A stretch of 47,038 nt of DNA from positions 1-47,038 of the IMG/VR virus record IMGVR_UViG_3300025030_000176, one strand, 5' to 3'. A program made the position numbers and the translations under genes. The stretch is from a virus. The notes below the pieces were generated by a model. That model ran no database searches, was not told the origin of the DNA, and saw nothing but the letters and a program-made list of their open reading frames with translations. Shown here in pieces: positions 2,749-41,395 of this stretch. The first letter of the stretch is position 1. Every line of letters begins with the position of its first letter.

Positions 2749-3050
2749 CCGGCACCAGCAAGGGAAACTACCACACCGGCCGGCAACGGCGGATGGTGGC
2801 TCCTACCAGGCAGCGGATGTTGGCAACGGCGGTGGCGTTCCGCTCCCCGCCCGAGTTCGGCGGTGGCGCCATCTTGCCGGCGACCCGGGTGGCGAACGTG
2901 GCGCACGCGCTGCTGACGGCGGTGAGCTACCAGTCGTACCCGGGCCAGTTGGATGAGGTGCGCCAGATCGCGCGGCAGCTCTACCGGCTGGCCGAGCTGC
3001 ACGAGGCGGGCGAGCTGGGCCCGATCGTGGACGACGGTTCACCGTTTTGA
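2745..3050 (+). CDS. Hypothetical protein (101 aa)
   Basis: It begins in an ATGA overlap with the preceding stop. The N-terminal third is basic and Gly/Arg-rich. The C-terminal two thirds are helical (LDEVRQIARQLYRLAEL). No family recognised. It belongs to the same coupled run as the DUF1874 and zinc-ribbon genes. Confidence 0.7.
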   Translation: MTGTSKGNYHTGRQRRMVAPTRQRMLATAVAFRSPPEFGGGAILPATRVANVAHALLTAVSYQSYPGQLDEVRQIARQLYRLAELHEAGELGPIVDDGSPF

Positions 3051-3088
3051 GCGAGGCGACGAGACTTGACGAGAGAGGAGACGAGACG

Positions 3089-3355
3089 ATGGCAGAGACG
3101 CTGTACGACGACACCTATACAGGCGACCGTTGGACCTACGGCCTCACCTACCGGCCGCTCGGCTACGCGCAGGTGCCGGCCGGATTTATCGTTTGGTCGG
3201 ACCGCCCGCATCCCGACTTCCGCTTCGGCACCATCGACTACCCCGAGCCGTTGCCGGAGCGCGTGGCGCAGCAAGCGAGTCTCACCCTCGTGGCCGTCAT
3301 GAACTCCCGGCTAAAGCCGGGGAGCTTGTGCCTAGAGCTGCACCATGAACGCTAA
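3089..3355 (+). CDS. Hypothetical protein (88 aa)
   Basis: ATG 3089 is chosen because GAGAGGAGACGAG lies just upstream; the open frame runs back to 3047 without a better start. The protein is rich in Tyr, Trp and Pro (TYGLTYRPLGYAQVPAG) and ends in a helix. It looks like a small beta-rich fold. Function unknown. Confidence 0.7.
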   Translation: MAETLYDDTYTGDRWTYGLTYRPLGYAQVPAGFIVWSDRPHPDFRFGTIDYPEPLPERVAQQASLTLVAVMNSRLKPGSLCLELHHER

Positions 3356-3468
3356 CGCCCAGGGACAGCCCCGACACGTGCGTCCACCTGGCCGCGGCTA
3401 TCTGGCGGGCGCAGGACGAGCGGGCGGCGCAGCGGCGGCAGTTGCGCGTGGTAGAGAGAGGAGCGTAG
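3345..3468 (+). CDS. Small hypothetical protein with apparent single-base frameshift
   Basis: ATG 3345 overlaps the end of the previous gene. After MNANAQ the protein-like sequence jumps one frame at the GGG of 3362-3364 and continues as DSPDTCVHLAAAIWRAQDER..., ending at TAG 3466-3468. Removing one G restores an intact frame of about 40 codons. The second frame has no start of its own. It could be a sequencing error or a recently broken gene. Confidence 0.4.
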
Positions 3469-3471
3469 GCG

Positions 3472-3816
3472 ATGACCTTCGACGAGATGAAGTGCGAGCT
3501 CCAGGAACGCGCACTGGAAGAGTTTGAGGCCCTCACCGAGGAGCGCCGCCTGGTGGTGGAGTTCGACGCGAAGTGCGCCGTCAAGCTGCTGTTCGCGCTG
3601 GCCCGGGCCTCGCACCATACCAAGGGGATCATCCGCGAGCAGTGCCTCGAGCTGGGCCGCGATATCCAACGGCAGTATCTCGAACCGGGCAGCGTGCTGG
3701 ACGGGTGCGTCGATCTCATGTGGGAGCGCGACGACCTCGTGATGAGCCTCGTGGAGACGATTCCCGTGCCGGACGCCTTCCGCATCGCGTTCAAGGAAGT
3801 GCACCGTGAGGATTGA
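3472..3816 (+). CDS. Hypothetical helical protein (114 aa)
   Basis: It starts at ATG 3472 behind AGAGAGGAG. It is acidic and almost wholly helical: an N-terminal amphipathic helix (EMKCELQERALEEFEAL), then KLLFALARASHHTKGI, then a C-terminal helix. No catalytic motif. It overlaps the next gene by 11 bases. Function unknown. Confidence 0.75.
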   Translation: MTFDEMKCELQERALEEFEALTEERRLVVEFDAKCAVKLLFALARASHHTKGIIREQCLELGRDIQRQYLEPGSVLDGCVDLMWERDDLVMSLVETIPVPDAFRIAFKEVHRED

Positions 3817-4099
3817 CCCCCTGGGCCAGATCCAGGAATTGACCCAGGCCCTCGCTCAGGAGCAGCGCATGCGCCGGCGCTGCGGCGAGCACTGCGCCGC
3901 ACTGGAGCGTGAGGTGACGCGCTTACGGGTGCTGCTCCATGAACTGCTGGACGACGCGCCGGCGGTGCTGCCGGACGGCGACGGAGCTATCGTGCCCCGC
4001 CGGGATCGCGCGGCCTACGCGGCGGCACTGGACCGAGCGCGTGCCGTGCTGGAGTCGCCTACGCCGCTACCTTCGCCGCCGCGAGCACCTGGTCGATAG
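3806..4099 (+). CDS. Hypothetical coiled-coil protein (97 aa)
   Basis: It starts at GTG 3806 inside the previous gene, indicating coupled translation. Residues about 8-48 form a long charged helix with two Cys (RRRCGEHCAALERE), followed by a Pro-rich tail. It is the last gene of the plus-strand run and overlaps the minus-strand response-regulator gene tail to tail by 41 bases. Confidence 0.7.
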   Translation: MRIDPLGQIQELTQALAQEQRMRRRCGEHCAALEREVTRLRVLLHELLDDAPAVLPDGDGAIVPRRDRAAYAAALDRARAVLESPTPLPSPPRAPGR

Positions 4100-4442
4100 C
4101 GGCGGTGAGTTCAGACACCGAGTACGGCTTGCCGACGAACCCCGCGGCGCCCAGCCGCGCCGCCTGCTGCCGGCCGTCCGCGGCCCCCGAGCAGACGACG
4201 ATCGGCGCCGTGCCGCCCTGCTCGCGGTAGACGCGGGCAAACGCCGGGCCGTCCATTCGGGGCATCTGCAGGTCGAGCAGGATGGCGTCCGGCTCACCGT
4301 GGCGGGCGATCTGGCGCAGCGCGCAGGCGCCGTCGTGCGCCAGCGTCACCCCGTAGCCGTCCAGGACCAGGATCTCTGCCGCCACGTGGCGCAGCACCTC
4401 GTCGTCCTCGACCACCAGGATATGCCTGCTCACGTCGCTCAC
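4059..4442 (-). CDS. Response regulator receiver domain protein (127 aa)
   Basis: A stand-alone CheY-like receiver. The acidic pocket is VVEDDE (Asp13, Asp14), the phospho-acceptor is Asp57 in LLDLQM, the switch Ser is Ser85 and the conserved Lys is Lys105 in GFVGKPYS, so every catalytic position is present. It has no output domain. The start is GTG in a GTGA overlap with the holin stop. It is the last gene of the lysis end of the late operon. Receivers are normally bacterial; here it may be a captured gene that sequesters a host kinase or acts on host signalling. The family is certain, the role is unknown. Confidence 0.9.
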   Translation of the reverse strand: MSDVSRHILVVEDDEVLRHVAAEILVLDGYGVTLAHDGACALRQIARHGEPDAILLDLQMPRMDGPAFARVYREQGGTAPIVVCSGAADGRQQAARLGAAGFVGKPYSVSELTAAIDQVLAAAKVAA

Positions 4443-4669
4443 TTGAGCACCTTTGGGACAGCGCCGGCGTCTTCGAGCGCGTTCTGGGTCCATGAGAGCA
4501 GCGCGATCACCCCCGCCACGGTGGCGGCAATCAGCACGCGCTTGGCGGTATCCGTGTCCGGGAGCGTGCCGGGGGACAGGTTAAGCGCCATCCAGGTCGC
4601 CAGTAGCGTCCCCACGAAGGACTGCACAAAGGTCCGGGTGGCGCGTTTCAGAGCATCGGCTAGGGGCAC
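4439..4669 (-). CDS. Putative holin (76 aa)
   Basis: A small membrane protein with an N-terminal helix typical of phage holins (ALKRATRTFVQSFVGTLLA) and two hydrophobic segments at about 12-30 and 44-60, separated by a short loop. Holins form lesions in the cytoplasmic membrane to release or activate endolysin. It lies three bases from the endolysin gene and overlaps the response-regulator start by four, consistent with a lysis cassette. Confidence 0.8.
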   Translation of the reverse strand: MPLADALKRATRTFVQSFVGTLLATWMALNLSPGTLPDTDTAKRVLIAATVAGVIALLSWTQNALEDAGAVPKVLK

Positions 4670-4671
4670 GG

Positions 4672-5313
4672 TTACACCTCCTGCAGGGCTTTGGTGATCA
4701 ACTGGTCGGTAGTACCGCGCTTCAGGCGGCGGCGGGCTTCGAGGTGCCGCAGCAGGTACTCGAACTCGGCTTTCAGTGCGTTGATACGGGCTTGGTCGAC
4801 CTCGAGCGCGCTGATTCTGTCCAGCAATGCTTGACGTTCTTCGTGGGTCATAGCGTCTTCCTCCTGTTGCGCGGCTAGTTTCGTCAGCACCGGATACGGG
4901 TCGACGTAGCCGCCGTAGCCGTTGCCACGGTCGAACCCCGGCGGCCGGAGTCCCAGGTGCAGGTGCGGCCCGCTGCTGTTGCCGGTGCTACCCGAGAGCG
5001 CCAGGTCTGCGCCCCACGCGACGCGCTCGCCGGACGCCGCCAGTGCCATCCGGCAGTGGCCGAACAGCCAGATGCGCCCCGAGTCGGCGGTCAGCGTGCC
5101 GTAAATGCCGTAGCCGACGAGCCGGCCTTGGGCGTCGATGTCGAGTCCCGTCCACCACACGCCCGGCTCCGGCGCCCGCAGCAGCGTGCCTACGGGCATG
5201 CCCAGGTCCAGCCCGTTGTGGCCCTTGATGTCGTAGATGCGGTAGTCAAAGTAGCGCATCTCGCCGAATAACTGCGTGATGCGGTGGTCACCGTCCCAGG
5301 CCAAGCTCTTCAT
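4672..5313 (-). CDS. M23 family peptidase, endolysin or tail-associated lysin (213 aa)
   Basis: The N-terminal domain is a zinc-dependent M23 metallopeptidase that cuts peptidoglycan cross-links: GHNGLDLG (His32, Asp36), GHC (His86) and HLHLG (His117, His119). The C-terminal about 60 residues are a charged helix (LLDRISALEVDQARINAL), probably for oligomerisation or targeting. ATG 5313 is chosen because GGAAGAG lies upstream and the start overlaps the stop of the preceding small gene. The holin neighbour makes an endolysin role most likely. Confidence 0.88.
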   Translation of the reverse strand: MKSLAWDGDHRITQLFGEMRYFDYRIYDIKGHNGLDLGMPVGTLLRAPEPGVWWTGLDIDAQGRLVGYGIYGTLTADSGRIWLFGHCRMALAASGERVAWGADLALSGSTGNSSGPHLHLGLRPPGFDRGNGYGGYVDPYPVLTKLAAQQEEDAMTHEERQALLDRISALEVDQARINALKAEFEYLLRHLEARRRLKRGTTDQLITKALQEV

Positions 5314-10557: not shown

Positions 10558-13500
10558 TTACACCGAGTTGAGGCTGAAGCTGCCGTAGGTGCGCAGCGTG
10601 CGCGTGAACTGCTGCGCAACTTCCTGCGCCAGTTCACGGATGGCGCCGGGTTGAGCGTAGACGCCGCCGGACAGGTGGATATGCACCGTGACGCCGCCTT
10701 GCCCGCCATTTGGCCCGCCGCCGAAGCCGAACTCGCGAGCACGAGACAGGGGAAACACGCCTTCGGGTTCACGGCCTTCGCCGATGAGTGCGCGCGTCGG
10801 GCGGGTGACGATGCCGCCGGCGGCGAAGTCGATCGACTTGAGATTGTGGACGACGAGGCCGGCCGCCAGGTAGTTGTGCTGATCGAAGTCGTCGCCGGCT
10901 TCCACGTGCAGGTTGAACACGTCGTACATGCCCGGCAGGGCGACGATGCTCACGACCGGCGCATCGTTCCACCGTTCGCCGTCCCAGGAGCGCAGTACGG
11001 TGCCGGGGCCGCACTTCCCCGCGGGCCGCCACGCGCCAGTGACGTACAGTAGGTGCTCAGGGGTCACGTCGATGAACGTGCCGCCACGCACCTTGAGGCG
11101 CAGCAGCCGGTGGCCCTCGCTCGCGGCGTGGCGGCACGTCTCGGTGACGGTGCGCGCCACCAGTCCCTCGGTGGCAGGGTCGTAGGAGAGCACCACGTCA
11201 CCCGCGGCGATAGATTCGATGGGCCGCTCGCCGTCCGGGGTGCTGATCAACGTGCCGGCGCGGAAGCAGCCGCCCTGATCCGGCGGCCCCGGTGGTGGCC
11301 CTGGTGGGCCAATGGGGGCCGGCGGTCCTGGTGGGCCGATGGGCGCTGGTGGGCCGCCACCATCACCGCCACCGGGTGGTGGCCCTGGTGGGCCAATGGG
11401 GGCCGGCGGTCCTGGTGGGCCGATGGGCGCTGGTGGGCCGCCACCATCACCGCCACCATCACCGCCACCATCACCGCCACCATCACCGGGTGGCGGTGAT
11501 GGTGGCGGTGATGGTGGCGGTGATGCCGGTTGACCAATCGGTGAGGGCACAATACCCCGGAGCAAGTTCTGCAACCATGTGGGCAGCGTGTTAAACAGGG
11601 CATTCATCGCATCCACGATGCCCTGCATGAGGGCCGTACCGATGCCCGCTACCGACTCCTGGAGCGCCTGCCAATTCTCGCTGATCCAGGTAGCGATGGT
11701 GTCGGGAAGCTCACTCAGCCGCTCCCAAACTTTGCCGGCCAAGTCCAGCGACGCCCAGAAGCCGCCGGCGATGGCTGTGCCGACGTTGCCAATGGCCGTA
11801 CCAACGGCCTCAATGGAAGTCGCCGACCATGTCGCAATAGCGTCATAGATTTCGCCCAGTCGGTTCCTCACATCGGCGGCGAGGTCCAAGGCGCGGTACC
11901 AGACATTCCTGATCCAAGCCGCAATAGCGTCAAACTGTGTTTCTACCGTTCCCTTCGTTGTCTCCCAGGCCTCGTCAACCGCCGCGGTCAAGCTGCCCCA
12001 CAGCTCGCCGGCGTTGTGCTGCAGCAGGAGCCAGTTCCAGCGCAGACCGGCGATGTTCTCGTCGGTCCGTTGCTGGATCATGCGCCAGGCCTCATCCAGT
12101 GCGTTACCCACCTGCGTTCGTACCGTCGCGATGATGTCGGGCGCAGCAATGGCAAAGATGATGGCGAGGGGGATACTCAACGGCCCGCCGAAGGCGAGGA
12201 TCAGGGCGGCGCCAAGGCCGGCAGCGACGTCATCGGCAACGCCACCCCAATTGCGCGCCCGTACGTCACGCTGTATCTCGGCGGCGACGATGGCGGCAAC
12301 GCCGAGTCCGGCGAAACTTGTCGCCGTCAGGCCGCCGATGGCCCGCACCAAGACAAAGACCAGCGCAGCCCCTATCGCCTCAACGGGATTCGTTCGAATC
12401 CAATCGATGATGCCCTGAATCAGCGTATGGGCGAACCTCTGCGCCCCCGGCACGATCCCATCGCGAAAGACGGCCCAGGCGTCATCCAGCAGATCGAGGA
12501 GCACCATGGCGAGCTCTTCGGCGAGCTTCCCTTGATTGTCCTTGAGCGTTTGCCAGAGGCCGCCCCAGTCGATCTGCTTGAAACGCTGCCATAGACTGCC
12601 AAACAGGTCGATCACCGGCTTGAGAAACCGGCCGATCCACTGCAGTGCGGCCCCGATGCCGTTGAGCGCGACGGCCGCGACCCGCAAGCCCAGAGTCAAC
12701 GCATCGAAGCCGAGACGGCCCAGGGCGCGGAAGAGCGGCGCGGCAGCGCGTCCTGCCGCCAGCAGTGCATCAACAAAGCGTTGCCAGAGGGGTCCGGCGA
12801 CGAGCGCTTTGGCGGCCGCCTGGGCCTGGGTCAAGCCGCTGATCAGGAAGCTGATCAGCGGCTTGACCACGGGATCGAGCCCCGTACCGAAGATGGTGAG
12901 CAGCCGCCGCCCAGCCGCAATGAGATTGCTGACCAGGCCCGTCGTCGTCTGGGCGGCCCGTTCCATGCCGCCGCCGAAGCGCTCGCGGATGCCCTCGCGG
13001 ATGGCGGCGATCGCGCGCTCACTCTCAATGCCCGCCGCGCCCAGGTTCTGCATGGCCTTTTGCGAAAGACCGAGCTTCTCGGCCAGGATCGCGAACGCGG
13101 GGATACCCGCCTCGGTCAGCTGATTGATCTCCTCCATCGACGCGCGGCCCTTGGCCTGCATCTGTCCCAGGGCCAGTGCCGCCCGTCCGAAGCGCTCCTC
13201 GTCGGCCCCGACGGCATCGCCCAGATCGGTCATGATCGGGATAATGTCACGCGCTTGAAAGCCAAAATTCAGCAGCTTCTCGGCGCCGCGGAAGGTCGCC
13301 GGATCGGAGAAGGGCGTGTGATCGGCAAACTCCTGAAGCTCCTCGAAGAGCGCATTGCCCTGAGCCACGTCCCGGAGCAGTGTCTCGAACCGCGCCCGAA
13401 ACACCTCGGTGTCTGCGGCGTTCCCAAGCATGCCCCGGCCCAACCCGACCACGGCAGCAGTCGCGCCGGCGATGAGTCCAATCGTGCCCATGCCGAACGT

Positions 13501-28279: not shown

Positions 28280-28648
28280 CTAAAAGCCGGGCGGGCCGCC
28301 CTGCAGACTGACGTTCACGGTCGCCGTGCGGACGCCGCCCGATACCCAGGAAAGCTGCAGGACCATCCAGGGGTAGTACCCGGTGAGCATCGCGCTGCCG
28401 GTCGCGCCGGCCGCCATGCTCAGGCTCGTGGCGGAAATCCATGGGCCATTGACCGGATCGCCATGCAGTGGCACCAGCAGATCGGCCGTTGCCTGGTTGC
28501 CTGAGCACTGCCATGCAAGCAGCCGGCGGCCCCAGCCGCGGCCATCGGCGGTACCCGGCAGGTAGCCCAGGGAACCGGAACCGGAAACCTGGGCAGTGCC
28601 AACCGCAGAGGCGCTACGAGCGAGCCAGGCGAGATCGGCGAACGGCAT
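28280..28648 (-). CDS. Head-region protein, paralogue of 28666-29046 (122 aa)
   Basis: It shares LARSASA.GTA near the N-terminus and a Gly/Ser/Thr-rich beta pattern with its upstream neighbour. It probably arose by tandem duplication of a small virion protein. No enzymatic motif. Confidence 0.68.
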   Translation of the reverse strand: MPFADLAWLARSASAVGTAQVSGSGSLGYLPGTADGRGWGRRLLAWQCSGNQATADLLVPLHGDPVNGPWISATSLSMAAGATGSAMLTGYYPWMVLQLSWVSGGVRTATVNVSLQGGPPGF

Positions 28649-28665
28649 CTTCTCCAGCCTCTCTC

Positions 28666-29046
28666 TCAGCTCGCGAGATGGGCGGCCACATGAAGGTGGG
28701 CCGTCGTGCCTGCGGCACGGCCGTCGATCCGCGCGACGAGGAACGGCTGTACCAATGCGGTGAGCAGGCCCGTGCGGACACCGGAGGCCGTCGAGACAAT
28801 GGACGTGATGGCCACCGCCGGCCAGCCGGCCGCGTTGACCACCCCGAGCAACGTGGCGGTCGCGGTGCCGGCGTTACACGCCATCGTCACCAATGCACTG
28901 GGCAGGCAGTTGCGCAAGTCCGCCGTCCCGGCAAAGGCATGGCTGCCGAGCCCCTGGACGAGCGCCGTCCCAGTGGCCGAGGCGGACCGAGCCAGAAATA
29001 CGCCGCCCTCTTCACCATCATGCAAACCAGCGAGTACACCGGGCAT
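28666..29046 (-). CDS. Head-region protein, paralogue of 28280-28648 (126 aa)
   Basis: Contains FLARSASATGTALVQGLGS, aligned with ARSASAVGTAQVSGSGS in its paralogue, then beta-rich sequence ending in TTAHLHVAAHLAS. It follows the capsid gene, the usual place of decoration or stabilising proteins. Confidence 0.68.
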   Translation of the reverse strand: MPGVLAGLHDGEEGGVFLARSASATGTALVQGLGSHAFAGTADLRNCLPSALVTMACNAGTATATLLGVVNAAGWPAVAITSIVSTASGVRTGLLTALVQPFLVARIDGRAAGTTAHLHVAAHLAS

Positions 29047-29073
29047 GAGCCGTCTTCTCCTTCCCGGGCGATG

Positions 29074-29105
29074 CCACTGGCTGGCTGCTTCCAGTCAGTC
29101 AGTGG
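29074..29105. terminator. Hairpin after the capsid gene
   Basis: CCACTG...CAGTGG with an inner CTGG...CCAG pairing lies in the 66 bases between the capsid stop and the next start. No long T run; possibly an attenuator that raises capsid mRNA relative to downstream genes. Confidence 0.5.
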
Positions 29106-29112
29106 CGGTCCC

Positions 29113-30486
29113 TTACGCCCAGCTTGCGGCCGTCACGCTGTCGCTCAGATACCAGTAGCGATCGTCGTAGAGCCCAACGCCGTACCAGGTGCGCGCCTTG
29201 TAGCGCCACACGTCGCGGGTGAACCACCCCTCGTTCGTCGCGTTGGGCAGGTTCTGGTCGACCAGCGTGAGCGGATCGACTTCCTGGTACACGGCGCCTT
29301 TGAAGCGGCGCCCGAGCAGCCAGTTGTACAGCCCAATCTGTGGCGTCGAGATGATGTTGGGCACCAGACCGAACAGCGGGTTCTGCTCACCGACGCCGCC
29401 GATCCCGCCGCCGGCCTGCGCGCCGTCCTCGCCCGACTGGACCCGCGCCGAACGGAGCAGTTGCGTCGCGGCGAAGACGACGTTCGCGCCGCAGACGAGC
29501 ACATCCGGCTGAATGCCGAGGAAACGCAGCGAGCGCGCATCGCGCATCGTGGTCAGGGTCGTGTAGGCGACGATCAAGTTCGCGGGGGTGAACGTCGTCG
29601 TCCCGGTATTGTTGCCGACGAGGTTATCCGCGCTGGTGCGCGTGTAGTTGCCGGTGGTCGTCATCACACCCCAGAAGGCGTTGTCGATCTCCTCGCGCAT
29701 CGCCTCGCCACGGTCACCGGCGAGCTGGCTGATCTGGTTCGTTTTGTCGAACCGGATCATTTCCTCCGTGACTTTGAGGATGTAGCCCTTCTTCACGTTG
29801 CGCACGGTCTTCGGGGCCAGCCCCGTCACCGTCACCTCAGGGTATTCCTCATCCTCGTCGACTCGCCCCGGCCGGCCCAGCCGCGAGAGCTCCAACCACA
29901 TCTCGACTTCCTTGTCCGATGGTGCGTTGAGCGCGACCTCCTGATACGTCGTCTGGAAGTTGGCGAAGGCGTTGAAGAGGATCGTTTTGAAGCCGGCCCG
30001 CAGAAGATAGGGAAACTCCGTCGTGTGGATCGCCTCGGACAACTTGAGCACGCGCCCAGAGGGCAGGTGGAAGCCGTGGGCATCCAGCAAGGCGGTGACC
30101 CGCTGCCGGCCGGCGGCCGGGGCGCCATGGACATACCCCCGGACGTCCTCATTGATCGCCTGCCACTCCGCGGCGCTGCGATAGCCACGCCGTACCGTCT
30201 CGGGGAGCGCGATGCTGCCCTGGTACTGGTACTGGTACTGGCCGGCGCCCGGCCCAAACTGCGGCGGGCCAATCTGCACGGCGCCGGCGGCAGGGCCATC
30301 AGCCGGTGGGGCCGGCGGCGGGACGCCGGCGGCGGCCGCGATCGCGGCGTTGGGGGCCGGGATGGTGCCGTTATACACGAGCGGGGAGATCCGCTCGATG
30401 AAGTTGCGGATCTCGCCCCAGTGTTCCTGCGTCAGATAGGGAATGCGGCCCGTTTCCTGGGGAGCCGTTACCGTTACGTCAGGCAT
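29113..30486 (-). CDS. Putative major capsid protein (457 aa)
   Basis: The size and place (after protease/scaffold, before connectors) fit an HK97-fold capsid protein. Features include the P-domain-like LSEAIHTTEFPYLLRAGFK, ALNAPSDKEVEMW, a long segment KVTEEMIRFDKTNQISQLAG, MREEIDNAFWGVM, and a C-terminal VDPLTLVDQNLPNATNEGWF, resembling the Mu gpT class. An N-terminal Pro/Gly/Gln-rich linker (about 50-85) includes a QYQYQYQ run encoded by CTGGTA repeats and may be a processed delta-like region. Confidence 0.75.
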   Translation of the reverse strand: MPDVTVTAPQETGRIPYLTQEHWGEIRNFIERISPLVYNGTIPAPNAAIAAAAGVPPPAPPADGPAAGAVQIGPPQFGPGAGQYQYQYQGSIALPETVRRGYRSAAEWQAINEDVRGYVHGAPAAGRQRVTALLDAHGFHLPSGRVLKLSEAIHTTEFPYLLRAGFKTILFNAFANFQTTYQEVALNAPSDKEVEMWLELSRLGRPGRVDEDEEYPEVTVTGLAPKTVRNVKKGYILKVTEEMIRFDKTNQISQLAGDRGEAMREEIDNAFWGVMTTTGNYTRTSADNLVGNNTGTTTFTPANLIVAYTTLTTMRDARSLRFLGIQPDVLVCGANVVFAATQLLRSARVQSGEDGAQAGGGIGGVGEQNPLFGLVPNIISTPQIGLYNWLLGRRFKGAVYQEVDPLTLVDQNLPNATNEGWFTRDVWRYKARTWYGVGLYDDRYWYLSDSVTAASWA

Positions 30487-30514
30487 TGTCGTTTTCCTTT
30501 TGACTTTCCCCTGG

Positions 30515-31117
30515 TTACCGGTCCACGATCGGTGCGGCGAGCGTCAGCGGGTGGAGCAGGACGATGTCCCACTGCCCAGTCGCCGCATTGGTCACGACGC
30601 GCATGATCTGGCCGACCGCACTGGTCGGGTCAACGCTGTAGGTGAAGCTGGTGAAAATGCCAGAGGCGGTCTGTCCACCAGAGACAGAGACCTCCTGCGC
30701 GCTGTTGGCACTGAGCAGACCGCCCAGCGTGGCGGTCGCGCTCCACAGGGCACCCTGGCCCGTGCGGCCAGTCTGCCCGACCACACCGGAACCGGTTTGC
30801 ACGGGGAAGACGTACGCGCCGGCCGAGAAGTTGGCCGTCACGGCCGACACCCGGAAGATGCCGCGCCGCCCGACCGGCATTTTGCCGTTGGCCGACGCCG
30901 AGCCGAAGGCGTCCCACATCGGGTTCTGGGCCAGGGCAATGCCGATGCCCGAATGCGGGAAATAGGCCGCCGCCGGCGTGCCGGTGGCCACCGCGATCAC
31001 GCTCTTGCCGCTAAAGGCCAGGTAGTCACCACGCATCGCCGTGTTGTTCGTGGACAGCATGTCCACGTAGACGATGGCATCGTCTCCCTGGCGAGGGTCG
31101 CCAATTGCTCCAGGCAT
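30515..31117 (-). CDS. Putative capsid decoration or head protein (200 aa)
   Basis: A beta-rich Gly/Ala/Thr protein: LSTNNTAMRGDYLAFSGKSV, FRVSAVTANFSAGAYVFPVQ. It lies between protease/scaffold and capsid genes, the common position of a decoration protein. Assigned by position and composition. Confidence 0.62.
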   Translation of the reverse strand: MPGAIGDPRQGDDAIVYVDMLSTNNTAMRGDYLAFSGKSVIAVATGTPAAAYFPHSGIGIALAQNPMWDAFGSASANGKMPVGRRGIFRVSAVTANFSAGAYVFPVQTGSGVVGQTGRTGQGALWSATATLGGLLSANSAQEVSVSGGQTASGIFTSFTYSVDPTSAVGQIMRVVTNAATGQWDIVLLHPLTLAAPIVDR

Positions 31118-33841: not shown

Positions 33842-34117
33842 AAGATATTCCCTGCCTTGCCCGGCCCTGCCTTGCCCTGCCTTGCCCGGCCCCGCCTGGC
33901 CCAGCCCAGCCCTGCCGTGCCCTGCCCCGCCCCGCCTGGCCCCGCCTGGCCCCGCCTGGCCACGCCTGGCCCTGCCGTGGACTTCGTGGCCCGTAGAGAG
34001 GCGACCAGCCATCCCTACAGAAGGGAGCCTCGCCCTGCCCTGCCGTGCCACGCCACGCCACGCCCCGCCGTGCCCAGCCTGGCCCTGCCATGCCCAGCCC
34101 GGCCCTGCCCAGCCGTG
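33842..34117. repeat. Degenerate 5-bp tandem repeat array (NNGCC), left of gene 34118
   Basis: About 130 bp (33851-33979) and 85 bp (34030-34114) are runs of NNGCC in which the GCC is nearly fixed and the two other bases vary. A non-repeat island of about 50 bp (33980-34029) separates them. The minus strand is (GGCNN)n and includes four G triplets with 2-base loops (34093-34110), a G-quadruplex motif just after the next gene's stop. No convincing gene here. Confidence 0.85.
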
Positions 34118-34740: not shown

Positions 34741-34828
34741 GTGCCTTGCCGTGTCGTGTGTCCTTGCCTTGCCGTGCCTGGCCCCGCCTTGCCGTGCCTG
34801 GCCGCGCCTCGCCCGGCCTCGCCGCGCC
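34741..34828. repeat. Degenerate 5-bp tandem repeat array (NNGCC), right of gene 34118
   Basis: The same NNGCC period as the 33842-34117 array, starting about 20 bases upstream of the gene's ATG and so forming its leader. On the mRNA it reads GGCNN, with AAGG-like stretches near the start. The remaining bases up to 34976 contain no gene I can support. Confidence 0.85.
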
Positions 34829-34976
34829 ATGGCATCTTGGGTTGTGCACCAAGCTACGTTCTTCTACTACTACAACGTACACGTTTCGCGCACGTCTCGT
34901 TACGCAGTAAAATCGTGACACGCAGAGAAGGTGACAGCGCGCAGGCGCTCTAGAGGCGAGAGGCAAGAGGCCGTCG

Positions 34977-35390: not shown

Positions 35391-35759
35391 TTAATCCTCT
35401 TCCTCTTCCGCTTCCACTGGTGGACCGGCAGCGAACCGCTGGATCGACAGCGCAAGGGCATGACACGCCTCGGGAAGCGTGCGGCCGCCGGCATTGATGC
35501 ACTCGCGCCGGTCCCACCACCACGAGTCGTAATCGTCTGGCATATCCGGACCCGCGGCGGCGCCATCACTGACATGCCTGATCAGACGGAACTCGCAGCG
35601 ATCGCGGTAGTACGTGCCGGTGCCCCGATCCTTCAGGCGCAGCTCCCACCCAGCCGCCTCGGCATCGGCACACAACGCAGTGAGATCACCTGCGCGCGCC
35701 GCGGCCGAGAGCTCAGGCAGCCGGTTGCGCGGTGGTTCCGTCCTCTTGAGTCTTGCCAT
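35391..35759 (-). CDS. Hypothetical protein (122 aa)
   Basis: ATG 35759 opens MARLKRTEPPRNRLPELSAA, inside the end of the MuF gene (47-base overlap). AARAGDLTALCADAEAAGWE and a WWWDRRECINAGGRTLPEA block follow, with an acidic tail. No family recognised. It is coupled to MuF expression by position. Confidence 0.66.
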   Translation of the reverse strand: MARLKRTEPPRNRLPELSAAARAGDLTALCADAEAAGWELRLKDRGTGTYYRDRCEFRLIRHVSDGAAAGPDMPDDYDSWWWDRRECINAGGRTLPEACHALALSIQRFAAGPPVEAEEEED

Positions 35760-37971
35760 CTTTTTCACCTGTCTTCGTCGTCGTCTTTCCCGTTCGCTCC
35801 AGCCTCTTGCCGCGCTGCTGACGCAAGCCGCCGTCCTCGTCGTCAGGGATACCATGTTCCGCCGCCCATTGCTTGTAGGTCTTGCGCGGCTTTGGCTCGA
35901 ATTGTTCGAGGCCAGTGAGGCCCAGCTCGGCAAACGATTTGGACACTGGCAGCCAGGCGCAACGACAATTGTGTACCACTATTCCGTTGCAGATGTATAA
36001 TGAGTACATACCATCCTGGAGGTCGTAAACATGTCCGTGACACGCTATCCGCCTGATGGCAACGATTGGATCGAGTGTTATCGCGCTGGCGCATCGTTGG
36101 CGAAACTGGCGAAGCAATACCGAGCCGCTGCTGAAACCGTGCGATGGTGGCTGATCGAGGCGGGCGAGCCCATCCGTGATCGAGTTGAGTCGTCGCGCAG
36201 TGCCATGCGCACTTTGCGCCGCCGGTTGCCCCTCGAAGACAGCCTGGTGCGGCTGTACCACCAAGGCGTGTCGATCAAGCGCCTGGGCGAACTGAACGGG
36301 ATCGATCGCAGCGCGATCACCCGGCGACTGCGTGATGCTGGCGTTCCCATCCGCGGACGCAGCGAGAGCATGTACATCCGCATGGCCCAGACTACTGCCA
36401 AGGATCGGCAATGGTTGACCGCCGCCGCCAATGCGGTCCAGCGTGGCGTGCCAAAGACCTGGGATGATCTCTGTACGAAGGCCATTGGCCGGCAACAGAG
36501 GCTCTCCCATGTCGCACCCGCTGAGCAAATGCTGGCGAAGTGGCTTCGCCAGCGCGGCGCGCCAATCACGCCCCAACTCGCCATCGGCCCGTACAACGTG
36601 GATATTGGCATCCATGAACCGCCCATCGCCGTGGAAATCTTCGGCGGCGGCTTTCATGGAAGCGGCAAGCACGCCATCCGCATGCATAAGCGCACCAAAT
36701 ACCTCCTCAATCAGGGATGGACGCTCATCATCGTGTGGGTAGACGGTCGCGCCGATCCGCTCACCGAGGCCGTAGCTGACTACGTGGTCGCCCTCGCACA
36801 ACAACCCAGCAGCGACCCATCCATTCGGAGTCGCTACCGGGTGATTGGGGGTAACGCGCAACCGGCGACCGTGCGCAGTACACACTTCAATGACGACGCC
36901 TTCATAGAGGCTCTTGGTCGCCGCGACTAGGCTGGGCACCGCTACCCACTGCCCGGGCAGCACACAGCGAGCATGCAATGGGATCGTCGGCGCCGCCGGA
37001 TCATCGATCGCCCAGCTCTTGCCGTCCAGGGCGCGACACCGAGATTCGGTGATACGGTCGTTCGTCGCCTGCCATTCTTTCTCGGCGACGACATCGGCAT
37101 TCGCCGCCATCACGGCCTCGGCGCCGGTCGCACTGGCCCGGATCAACTCTGTCCTGACCAGCAGCTCCGCGTGTTTCCGTGGGGTCATCCCACGGCGTAC
37201 GGGCTTGACGTTCAGTGCATCGGCCGCCGCCTGCCGCCGGGCAGCGACCGGCCCCTCGCCGACCGTGACGCCGAGCAGCCGCAGCAGCCGTGAGGTCGCC
37301 TGCGAGACGCTCTCCCCTTCGAGCTGCGAAAGGGCAATCGTGCGCCGCAGCGACAGCAGCAGCGCGGGCCGTTGCTCGGCGTACCGCTCGAGGTAGGTCA
37401 TACCCTGGTACGGGTGCAGCACGGCCGCCATGACGGCTTGATGCGGCAGGACGGGTGCCGTGACGCCGAGCTGAAGGGGCAGTTGCTGATCGAGCGTCCA
37501 GGAAGTGCCGTAGTAGCTCTGGCGGTAGGCCTCCATCGTCGCTCGCAGGGTCTCGTCGCCGGCTGCCTGCACCATCCGCTGCATGGCGACATCCACCTGC
37601 TGCATGAGGGCCTGGAGACGTGCTGCCTGCTGCTGCGCCGAGAGGGGTACACGGCCGGCGGCGAGCGCCTGCGTCCAGGTGTGCTCACCACCATAGTCCT
37701 CGATAATCCGCCGCCACTGCTCAGCCAGCTCACGCCCGCCCTCGGCATAGTACGCGCTCACTCGCCGTAGCGTCTCGGCGACCTGCCCGTTAATCCGTTG
37801 GCGTACCCAATCGACATTCTGACGCGCCTGGCGGCGGGCGGCATCGGTATCGGTGTCTTGCTGAGCCGACTGGCGGGATTTGCGCGCCTTCGCCTCAGTC
37901 TGATGCACCGCTACGAGGCGACTGGTCCAGTGCCAGCGTGGATAGTCGTCATAGTTGTCATGGAAGGTCAC
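35713..37971 (-). CDS. MuF/SPP1 gp7-like head protein carrying an intein (752 aa)
   Basis: The N-extein (1-335) is a helical phage Mu F/SPP1 gp7-type head morphogenesis protein next to the portal gene. The intein spans residues 336-668. The C-extein starts with Cys669, and splicing would join LHAR to CRCAWLPV, rebuilding the conserved HxxCRC end motif of the family. So the intein sits in the most conserved spot, as inteins do. A C-terminal basic tail follows. Translation starts at ATG 37971 in an ATGA overlap with the upstream gene. Splicing is required for a normal product. Confidence 0.9.
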   Translation of the reverse strand: MTFHDNYDDYPRWHWTSRLVAVHQTEAKARKSRQSAQQDTDTDAARRQARQNVDWVRQRINGQVAETLRRVSAYYAEGGRELAEQWRRIIEDYGGEHTWTQALAAGRVPLSAQQQAARLQALMQQVDVAMQRMVQAAGDETLRATMEAYRQSYYGTSWTLDQQLPLQLGVTAPVLPHQAVMAAVLHPYQGMTYLERYAEQRPALLLSLRRTIALSQLEGESVSQATSRLLRLLGVTVGEGPVAARRQAAADALNVKPVRRGMTPRKHAELLVRTELIRASATGAEAVMAANADVVAEKEWQATNDRITESRCRALDGKSWAIDDPAAPTIPLHARCVLPGQWVAVPSLVAATKSLYEGVVIEVCTAHGRRLRVTPNHPVATPNGWVAAGLLCEGDHVVSYGLGERIGATVYPHDDERPSLIEEVFGALMHADGVLAASMKAAAEDFHGDGRFMDANIHVVRADGELGRDWRAALAKPLRQHLLSGCDMGEPLLPANGLRTEIIPGLWHATLDRIGGGGQPLPILGSSLGHADVHALAASADGNASITQSPGDRAAIDPVQFAQALDRHALVVQPHQAVFEGQPAAQSAHGTARRLNSITDGLARLDQPPSHGFSSGSVLLRQFRQRCASAITLDPIVAIRRIACHGHVYDLQDGMYSLYICNGIVVHNCRCAWLPVSKSFAELGLTGLEQFEPKPRKTYKQWAAEHGIPDDEDGGLRQQRGKRLERTGKTTTKTGEKDGKTQEDGTTAQPAA
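35996..36023 (+). promoter_or_regulatory. -10 box and ribosome binding site of the antisense nuclease
   Basis: TATAAT at 35996-36001 (perfect -10; the -35 is weak) and GGAGGT at 36018-36023, seven bases before ATG 36031. On the other strand the same bases encode the conserved intein end YSLYICNGI, so both strands are under constraint. Confidence 0.72.
36031..36930 (+). CDS. VSR/EDxHD-type homing endonuclease, antisense within the intein (299 aa)
   Basis: Two helix-turn-helix units come first (ASLAKLAKQYRAAAETVRWW at 21-40 and VSIKRLGELNGIDRSAITRR at 80-99, each followed by AGxPIR), then a VSR/DUF559-like nuclease core: Glu165 in APAEQMLAKWL, Asp191 in YNVDIGI, Glu202 in AVEIFGGGFHG, and His/Arg-rich HAIRMHKRTKYLLNQGWTL, ending in a helix. 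EDxHD nucleases are known partners of some inteins. It would cut intein-free MuF alleles and drive homing. It has its own promoter-like box and strong RBS. The unusual point is its antisense position inside the intein. Confidence 0.85.
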   Translation: MSVTRYPPDGNDWIECYRAGASLAKLAKQYRAAAETVRWWLIEAGEPIRDRVESSRSAMRTLRRRLPLEDSLVRLYHQGVSIKRLGELNGIDRSAITRRLRDAGVPIRGRSESMYIRMAQTTAKDRQWLTAAANAVQRGVPKTWDDLCTKAIGRQQRLSHVAPAEQMLAKWLRQRGAPITPQLAIGPYNVDIGIHEPPIAVEIFGGGFHGSGKHAIRMHKRTKYLLNQGWTLIIVWVDGRADPLTEAVADYVVALAQQPSSDPSIRSRYRVIGGNAQPATVRSTHFNDDAFIEALGRRD

Positions 37972-39743: not shown

Positions 39744-41395
39744 CGTGTGGTGTTGCCTCCTACCGTACTTCCAGCCGGCACCCGGCCGTTCGTGCCGTTC
39801 GTGCCGTTCGTGCCGTTCGTGCCGTTCGTGCCGGGAATATCGTCTGCCCCCGGCTGTCCGAGCAAGTCCAACTCGTCGTCGTCATTGCTGATGAAGCCCG
39901 CCGCGGCCCGTGCCGTGTCCGCCTCGCGCTCCGCCTCGATCCGCTTGATCTCCAGTTGCGGATCGCGCCCGAGGTCCTGCATCGCCGTCTGCCGCGACAC
40001 GAGTTCCTGGCCTAGTTGCAGGACCAGCGCCTCGGTCAGGGTCTTCGGGTCTTCCTTCGCCGGCGGCGGATAGGCGAGGTCGAACGCTTCCAGCGCCTTG
40101 ATCAACTTCGGTTCGCCGGTCACATCGTCAATGATCGGCTCGCCCTCGCCGTCGATCTCGGGTTCCTCGTCCTCGACCAACCCAACGGCGATCGCCGTTT
40201 CCACCACCCGGCGATAGATCGGCCGCCAGACCTGGTTCGCCATCACATCCTGATAGTCGGCAAAAAGCCGGTTGGCCGGGGACTCTTGTGAGCGCGTGCT
40301 CGCGAGGTTGGAGTTCTCGGCATCGCCCGCGTAGACATATTCTGGCAGATTGAGGCCTGCCGCGGCGGCGAGCTTGATCTGCCGGCCGTCTTCCGCCACC
40401 TCGGCCGCGCCGATCTTCGGTTCCACCGTTTCGAGCTTCTGATTGTCCGACGTAACGAGAATAGATGCCGGCGGCGGCGCCACGCGGTACTGATTGCGCA
40501 GCGTGCTGATCTGCGCCGCCGTCGCATTCGCCACGGACAGGTGAAAATAGATGTTGCCCTTGTAACGGTTGATGCGCGCCCGATCTTCCAGCCAGTCCTT
40601 GTACAGCTTGAGCCAGGGCAGGACCGCCAGCAGCTCGGAACGGCCACGGCGCTCGTACGCCAAGAGGTTGATGGGGACATGCAACACGTCGGCCGCCGGG
40701 ATTTCCTGTGGCCCATCATCTGGATACGTGCGCTCGGGCACATCACCGGTGAAAAGCTGGACCCAGTACGCACGCACCCGACGGCGGAACTGCGGTTCAC
40801 TGCGGATTTCCAGGACCCACCACGGCGGCAGTGGGTCAATCACGACTTGCGCCGAGACTGGCGCGCCGCTCGCCCGATCGACGGGCGCCGGCGTCATCCG
40901 CACGAACAGTTCGCCGTCGATCAACAGTTGCTCGCAGAACTGTTTATCGTAGGCCTCGATGGCATTCTCGGGCAGCGTACGGAAGGCTTCGAGCACGGTC
41001 TTCACGCTGGCGGCGCGGTAGGTCATCGTATGGCCCTGAGCTACCGTGCTGGCGCGAATGATTCGGATGGCGCCCTTGGCCCACGGGTTGCGCTCCCAGG
41101 CAGCGTGCGCGCGGCGCCACATCACCAGGCGCTCCTGCCAGGTCATCTCCGCGAGGTCGTAGTCTTCGCCGCGAATGCCGGCCGCGCGCCGATAGGGCGG
41201 CCCCGGCTCGAAGTCGTACAGGCCGCTCGGCTGCTCGGCCGTATAGGACGCCTCGCGGGCGCGCAGTACCTCTCGCAGCTCTGGATCGCTCACCTCGGCG
41301 GCATCCAGATCAACGAAGGCGGCGCCCAGACGTTGCCGTAGAAGTTGGCCGTACTGATCGACCAACCCATCGCTTCCTGGTGGTGTTGCAGCCAT
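39740..41395 (-). CDS. Portal protein (551 aa)
   Basis: A phage portal protein: AHAAWERNPWAKGAIRIIRA (wing/stem opening), FCEQLLIDGELFVRMTPA, VLHVPINLLAYERRGRSELL and LGQELVSRQTAMQDLGRD near the C-terminus, the order and length usual for the family. The dodecameric ring forms the DNA channel. It follows terminase and precedes MuF, as expected. The last residues are a slippage-prone NGT run encoded by 9-bp repeats. Confidence 0.88.
   Translation of the reverse strand: MAATPPGSDGLVDQYGQLLRQRLGAAFVDLDAAEVSDPELREVLRAREASYTAEQPSGLYDFEPGPPYRRAAGIRGEDYDLAEMTWQERLVMWRRAHAAWERNPWAKGAIRIIRASTVAQGHTMTYRAASVKTVLEAFRTLPENAIEAYDKQFCEQLLIDGELFVRMTPAPVDRASGAPVSAQVVIDPLPPWWVLEIRSEPQFRRRVRAYWVQLFTGDVPERTYPDDGPQEIPAADVLHVPINLLAYERRGRSELLAVLPWLKLYKDWLEDRARINRYKGNIYFHLSVANATAAQISTLRNQYRVAPPPASILVTSDNQKLETVEPKIGAAEVAEDGRQIKLAAAAGLNLPEYVYAGDAENSNLASTRSQESPANRLFADYQDVMANQVWRPIYRRVVETAIAVGLVEDEEPEIDGEGEPIIDDVTGEPKLIKALEAFDLAYPPPAKEDPKTLTEALVLQLGQELVSRQTAMQDLGRDPQLEIKRIEAEREADTARAAAGFISNDDDELDLLGQPGADDIPGTNGTNGTNGTNGTNGRVPAGSTVGGNTTR
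39785..39829. repeat. 9-bp tandem repeat in the portal 3' end
   Basis: Five units of GCCGTTCGT encode repeated Gly-Thr-Asn on the minus strand (TNGTNGTNGTNG) at the portal C-terminus. The array keeps the reading frame whatever its copy number. Confidence 0.85.

Follow-up and report, generated by a model that had tools for sequence, protein, structure and literature searches.

A homing element spreads when a break is repaired from the copy that bears it, and once inserted it abolishes the target site. The closest described systems are large inteins with an in-frame LAGLIDADG or HNH nuclease, which share with the locus described here a HINT domain whose DNA also encodes a nuclease, a conserved site in a conserved gene, and precise presence or absence. 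They differ in that the nuclease here is antisense, is a separate protein with its own putative promoter, Shine-Dalgarno sequence and ATG, and overlaps part of the splicing domain, the sense linker being mostly predicted to be disordered. In the fractured genes described by Dassa and colleagues in 2009, the two halves of a split intein are reportedly separated by a free-standing gene for a Vsr-like endonuclease. An intein and a separate Vsr-like endonuclease gene thus meet at one site in both cases, but there the nuclease gene parts two intein halves, whereas the present intein is unbroken and is read from the same base pairs as the antisense nuclease.

Homing endonucleases of the EDxHD type tether a nuclease domain to DNA-binding modules (PMC3943268). 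I-Bth0305I resembles the present nuclease in this arrangement, in catalytic-domain fold and in phage setting, but is a group I intron enzyme of low sequence identity, and the antisense nuclease has an N-terminal pair of helix-turn-helix (HTH) units. Antisense homing endonuclease genes (HEGs) occur in nuclear group I introns, for example I-DsqI, where the gene sits in the peripheral segment P9.2 and overlaps no other protein (PMC9548176). Such HEGs are likewise antisense to the splicing element that they would mobilize; they lie in an intron RNA segment, whereas here one stretch of base pairs yields both a splicing protein and a nuclease. Stand-alone REase_MTES_1575, DUF559 and Vsr nucleases share the catalytic domain profile and fold, but are not known in antisense or in inteins. 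In the open-access literature antisense HEGs were found in group I introns only, and no report was found of an intein with a nuclease encoded antisense to itself.

The DNA analyzed was IMG/VR virus record IMGVR_UViG_3300025030_000176 (47,038 bp), referred to below as the window; its features are listed in the table. With a probability of about 0.88, we take the element in its MuF gene to be a mobile intein that has its homing endonuclease encoded by a separate gene, opposite the intein coding sequence. The data supporting this reading concern anatomy, family, predicted fold, strand-specific selection, start-signal selection, presence/absence, occupation of more than one site, and transfer. Classed as an intein by motif tests and as carrying a homing-type nuclease by fold and context, the element would work like a homing intein.

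Table. Features of the intein-nuclease locus (window positions) and of the free-standing homologue L110 (positions in its own contig)
Feature	Position	Strand	Evidence or remark
MuF-like minor capsid/head morphogenesis gene, intein-bearing	35713-37971	-	Pfam Phage_Mu_F E 1.1e-8; PHROG head proteins
N-extein of MuF gene	36967-37971	-	
C-extein of MuF gene, with stop	35713-35967	-	
Intein, 333 aa, before Cys+1 of the conserved MuF CRC motif	35968-36966	-	Intein_splicing E 3.3e-10
Intein block B region, VTPNHPVAT	36829-36852	-	T39 and H42 invariant; overlapped by C-terminal part of nuclease
EDFHGDG linker motif	36622-36642	-	Mirror of nuclease PIAVEIF (residues 198-204)
Intein block F, HVYDLQ	36016-36033	-	Complement is nuclease Shine-Dalgarno and start codon
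Putative antisense homing-type endonuclease gene, 299 aa, ATG start	36031-36930	+	MTES_1575 8.2e-8; HTH_58 1.2e-5
First HTH unit, residues 10-43	36058-36159	+	AlphaFold2 helices; structural matches to repressor/transposase HTH domains
Second HTH unit, residues 69-102	36235-36336	+	HTH_58/HTH_28; AlphaFold2
Vsr/PD-(D/E)xK-type catalytic core, residues 163-238	36517-36744	+	Structural matches; conservation
Shine-Dalgarno GGAGGT, seven bases before ATG	36018-36023	+	Complement of intein Asp-Leu(CTC)-Gln codons
-10 box TATAAT, inside intein C-terminus	35996-36001	+	
Candidate -35 box GTACCA, weak	35973-35978	+	
L110 free-standing nuclease homologue	2986-3681	+	Thermoleophilia MAG
L110 intein-free MuF gene	3665-4711	-	Thermoleophilia MAG

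An earlier examination of the letters alone (the sequence-only reading) had proposed a 999-bp intein with splicing motifs in MuF and no endonuclease in the intein's own frame, and both points held: the coordinates were right, and the intein and its host gene matched Intein_splicing and Phage_Mu_F. The intein has a nucleophilic C1, block A, block B (TxxH, as T39-P-N-H42), block F (HVYDL) and block G (HN), followed by Cys in the C/S/T+1 position. Among 36 members searched with Pfam profiles, all matched Intein_splicing and none carried an endonuclease family in the frame of the intein; no Pfam family was found for the linker in any member examined. The HINT ends were modeled with high confidence, residues 67-128 with moderate confidence, and residues 129-277 with pLDDT below 50.

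The 299-residue plus-strand protein with two HTH units and a VSR-type core, as the same reading described it, was recovered as an ORF with HTH profile matches, AlphaFold2 helices and a Vsr/I-Bth0305I-like predicted fold. The gene lies wholly within the intein borders with its 3' end near the intein N-terminus, and the antisense frames are in codon register, so that every codon of the plus frame is the reverse complement of one in the minus frame. The AlphaFold2 model (mean pLDDT 84) has two HTH units and an E-E-E-H-E nuclease core, and its best matches among solved structures were Vsr (1cw0, VIA Z 11.2) and a Vsr-like nuclease (3hrl, 9.7); the I-Bth0305I catalytic domain (3r3p) scored 9.1 at a sequence identity of only 11%. 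In the core, E165, D191, E202 and H209 are conserved, the presumed catalytic His209 in alignment A6, with replacement in the Jersey-like group. Against REase_MTES_1575 (PF18741) the window nuclease scored 32.7 bits, below the Pfam gathering cut-off of 38.2, and it is treated as a related family and not filed as a member; a match to this profile at E 0.01 or better was obtained for 37/37 aligned nuclease members. According to the predicted structures, much of the overlap pairs folded nuclease with disordered intein, the disordered nuclease tail (residues 282-299) lies opposite folded intein, and both proteins are folded at the overlap ends. An open frame alone is weak evidence in GC-rich DNA; it is the profile, structure, substitution and start-signal tests that make a strong case for the plus ORF, which is a real gene and not an antisense shadow.

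Judged from the letters, the C-terminal splicing block of the intein, read backwards, is a predicted sigma-70 promoter, Shine-Dalgarno sequence and ATG. The nuclease ATG is the complement of the block F His codon, with the -10 and -35 boxes facing the stretch that joins block F to block G. The TATAAT and GGAGGT elements of the window, which had been singled out beforehand, are both perfect and stood, but the -35 box of the window itself is poor, though perfect in many relatives; -35 and -10 together match at 9/12 positions (synonymous-null p 0.03), and a simple promoter scan of the window did not report the site at TATAAT. A perfect TTGACA-N16-18-TATAAT was present in 10/67 loci. The block F Leu codon was CTC in 56/62 cases versus a background of 21%, and the block F His codon was CAT, also in 56/62, versus 42%.

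For the start-signal null, the intein protein was kept and synonymous codons were resampled from the same host ORF. Against this null the promoter stood at z 13, the Shine-Dalgarno length at z 11 and the ATG at z 8. Because the sequences are related and nominal p-values are optimistic, thinned and replicate sets (sequences under 60% identical) were used, with sites chosen blind to codon: z was 15.3 for the promoter and 9.4 for the Shine-Dalgarno sequence in the first thinned set, and 9.7 and 6.4 in a separate second one. The bias was absent in 22 control inteins without an antisense gene (z 0.6 and -1.4), where His never precedes Val-Tyr and Leu is CTC at background level (4/14). An ATG stood opposite the block F residue in 60/82 relatives of the first thinned set; others have GTG or TTG starts, and some have no start opposite block F.

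About 200 distinct relatives, from diverse phage isolates, viral contigs and prophages, were found within inteins on the opposite strand. A tblastn search with the plus-strand protein matched 122 phage records and, among the matches listed, almost all run antisense to MuF or another head gene. Relatives are encoded in at least 535 stretches of IMG/VR, and two further scans gave 384 and 266; scans of IMG/VR with single window proteins gave no matches. The minus frame was open across the nuclease in 102/102 loci of the first set and in 114/114 distinct loci of the later scans, the two viral sets partly overlapping. Many of the loci are metagenomic, and cultured isolates, among them Salmonella, Escherichia and Gordonia phages, show the same design. 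A scan of GTDB contigs yielded 18 bacterial loci from several phyla; in 17 the nuclease lies antisense in an intein, with the minus frame open across it. In the remaining locus, L110, a nuclease gene stands free, tail-to-tail with an intein-free MuF gene; homologues are thus not confined to antisense frames, and this one is possibly an ancestral or an escaped homing gene. L110 is the only full-length HTH plus nuclease arrangement seen outside inteins, and a scan with its protein found no close viral relatives. Among 400 Chloroflexota genomes there were only three long matches, the remainder being isolated HTH or nuclease domains.

The host genes include MuF, Phage_min_cap2, dCMP deaminase, the terminase large subunit and the head maturation protease; the dCMP deaminase case (virus Rctr197k, L004 616-1968, minus strand) has the same intein-nuclease design outside the head and packaging genes. 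No antisense gene was annotated over the intein in the 19 phage intein regions examined, and a few other phage records annotate small extra hypothetical proteins under the nuclease match. As a separate observation on annotation, the PHROG profile phrog_15127, "head protein", appears to include the intein and linker (window 35968-36966); in terminase, protease and other hosts it aligns with the intein portion, and it could mislead annotation.

Intein-free alleles were sought with joined flanks. For Jersey/Kaguna-type flanks, 403 phage records cover at least 80% in one place, and intein-bearing phage records match only half of the Jersey-type joined flanks; for Gordonia flanks, 110 phage records cover at least 80% in one place, many at 95-97% identity. 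Such presence and absence alone could come from ordinary phage recombination. Between Escherichia phage Snoke and Salmonella phage LP31, the intein DNA is 95.3% identical and the flanks only 71-73%. The size and sharpness of this difference speak for transfer, and by this comparison the element has evidently moved between Escherichia and Salmonella phages. The MuF proteins of Snoke and KMB36 are 95.7% identical, but their inteins share only 26.8% identity and occupy two different sites, neither phage having an insert where the other has one, so that movement of the element is again independent of the host gene. Gordonia pairs show the reverse (inteins 86-90%, flanks 94-96% identical). Double coding may account for part of the slower divergence of some inteins. 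The expectation that intein and nuclease gene would move together is matched by the precise presence/absence, the use of more than one site and the transfer.

For the selection test, differences in 21 pairs were classed by their effect on both proteins, changes at plus-codon position 3 being mostly silent for the nuclease and those at position 1 mostly silent for the intein. Within the overlap, position 3 changes exceeded position 1 changes in 21/21 pairs, whereas the pooled exteins had the reverse bias (2058 vs 1289), with a few diverged pairs near parity or slightly opposite. Plus-strand constraint was strong throughout the overlap (NN/SN 0.44-0.54; NS/SS 0.34, 0.31-0.38). On the minus strand, block B was the most constrained stretch (NN/NS 0.46), and constraint facing the HTH region was weak (NN/NS 0.89); because SS sites are scarce and confined to special codon types, the minus-strand SN/SS ratio gives no more than rough guidance. 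Constraint is thus not limited to the minus strand and is the stronger on the plus strand.

A reading in which the plus ORF is no gene, and arises as a side effect of intein conservation in GC-rich DNA, is scarcely credible, although the codon-aligned antisense phase commonly yields shadows and a shadow does exist here. When the intein residues were fixed and the codons resampled, the nuclease HMM still gave the shuffles a median score of 94 bits, and part of the tblastn similarity is shadow. It explains only part of the nuclease similarity: the medians were 338 bits for real model members and 291 for real sequences outside the model. The one-sided substitutions in every pair, the independent REase profile match, the confident nuclease fold, the codon-level selection for Shine-Dalgarno sequence, ATG and promoter, and the free-standing homologue L110 all tell against it as well. 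A chance antisense ORF was ruled out by the substitution pattern, by the start-signal null, and by the openness of the shuffles, in which the plus frame stayed open in 1% of cases for the window and in 4% averaged over 74 loci. The shadow runs the other way in the linker. The recurring DFHGDG motif mirrors the A-V-E-I-F segment of the nuclease, exactly opposite as the sequence-only reading had it, and its suggestion that such linkers mark hidden antisense nucleases is upheld. Motifs are indeed recognizable on both strands, but in the linker it is the nuclease strand that leads, constraint on the intein falling mainly on its splicing blocks, and the linker "family motif" is therefore for the most part a nuclease shadow. 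Among 208 distinct loci, which were selected for having the nuclease residues so that only the alternation on the intein side is informative, the nuclease Glu codon was GAA (intein Phe) in 158 and GAG (intein Leu) in 50, and the Asp codon, GAC or GAT, gave Val or Ile in the intein. It is accordingly very improbable that the linker is itself a functional domain from which the antisense similarity follows. Its conserved positions and the moderately confident residues 67-128 would fit such a domain, yet it has no Pfam family, residues 129-277 are disordered in the model, minus-strand constraint is weak opposite the HTH region, and the F/L and V/I alternatives of the motif correspond to codons that are synonymous for Glu and Asp in the nuclease. 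A nuclease encoded by the linker on the sense strand was also considered, and the profile search found none.

Two further readings accept the nuclease and differ over what it does. In most copies it might be a decaying passenger of inteins that persist by splicing alone. L122 (2929-3510) retains a short intein of 194 aa with an open frame opposite a nuclease with a large internal deletion, a possible decay stage of the homing cycle, and the loci without a start codon opposite block F point the same way; but many pairs show purifying selection on the nuclease and the plus frame is intact in nearly every locus examined, and such decay is improbable as the general state. Alternatively, the nuclease might mainly harm co-infecting phages by cutting intein-free head genes, with homing secondary. 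Nucleases of phage introns can disable a co-infecting phage, the genes that house the element are mostly essential ones for head and packaging, and relatives without the intein are common. We regard this as unlikely but worth keeping in view: transfer and alternative sites are what homing predicts, and the two roles need not exclude each other.

Under the reading of a mobile intein with an antisense homing nuclease, MuF would be translated from the sense strand with the intein, and the HINT domain, split by its mostly disordered linker, would, judging by its motifs, splice itself out and restore MuF. On the antisense strand, the embedded promoter, Shine-Dalgarno sequence and ATG opposite blocks F-G would drive the nuclease, perhaps early in infection through the sigma-70 polymerase of the host, MuF being a late gene. 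Unless suitably timed or weak, such convergent transcription would disturb expression of the host gene. The HTH units would recognize the conserved insertion region and the Vsr-like core, as its fold suggests, would cut the intein-free allele; repair of the break from an element-bearing copy would spread intein and nuclease together, the insertion destroying the target. The distribution of the element points to such homing.

The element probably represents a widespread, undescribed class of homing element, with a splicing protein and a homing nuclease on the two strands of the same DNA and a splicing block that doubles as promoter, ribosome-binding site and start codon. If so, inteins catalogued as lacking an endonuclease may harbor active antisense nucleases and hence be mobile, the classification of inteins without an in-frame endonuclease would change, and annotation of phage head genes would be missing a gene family. 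A recurring intein "linker" motif would be explained as the mirror image of a nuclease active site. The locus would also offer a clear case, open to statistical testing, in which the two strands of one stretch of DNA each encode a conserved protein, and a model for the upkeep of overlapping genes in which much of a folded nuclease faces a disordered intein part.

The window has some other features. GC-rich, short-period imperfect tandem arrays (CCCTGCCTGG and similar) lie near MuF at 33850-33976, 34026-34114 and 34766-34833. There is a perfect 84-bp tandem duplication at 11291-11457 and a perfect 9-bp array (GCCGTTCGT x 5.4) at 39785-39833. Long opposite-strand ORFs of 712 and 457 aa overlap at 28468-30606 (plus strand) and 29113-30486 (minus strand).
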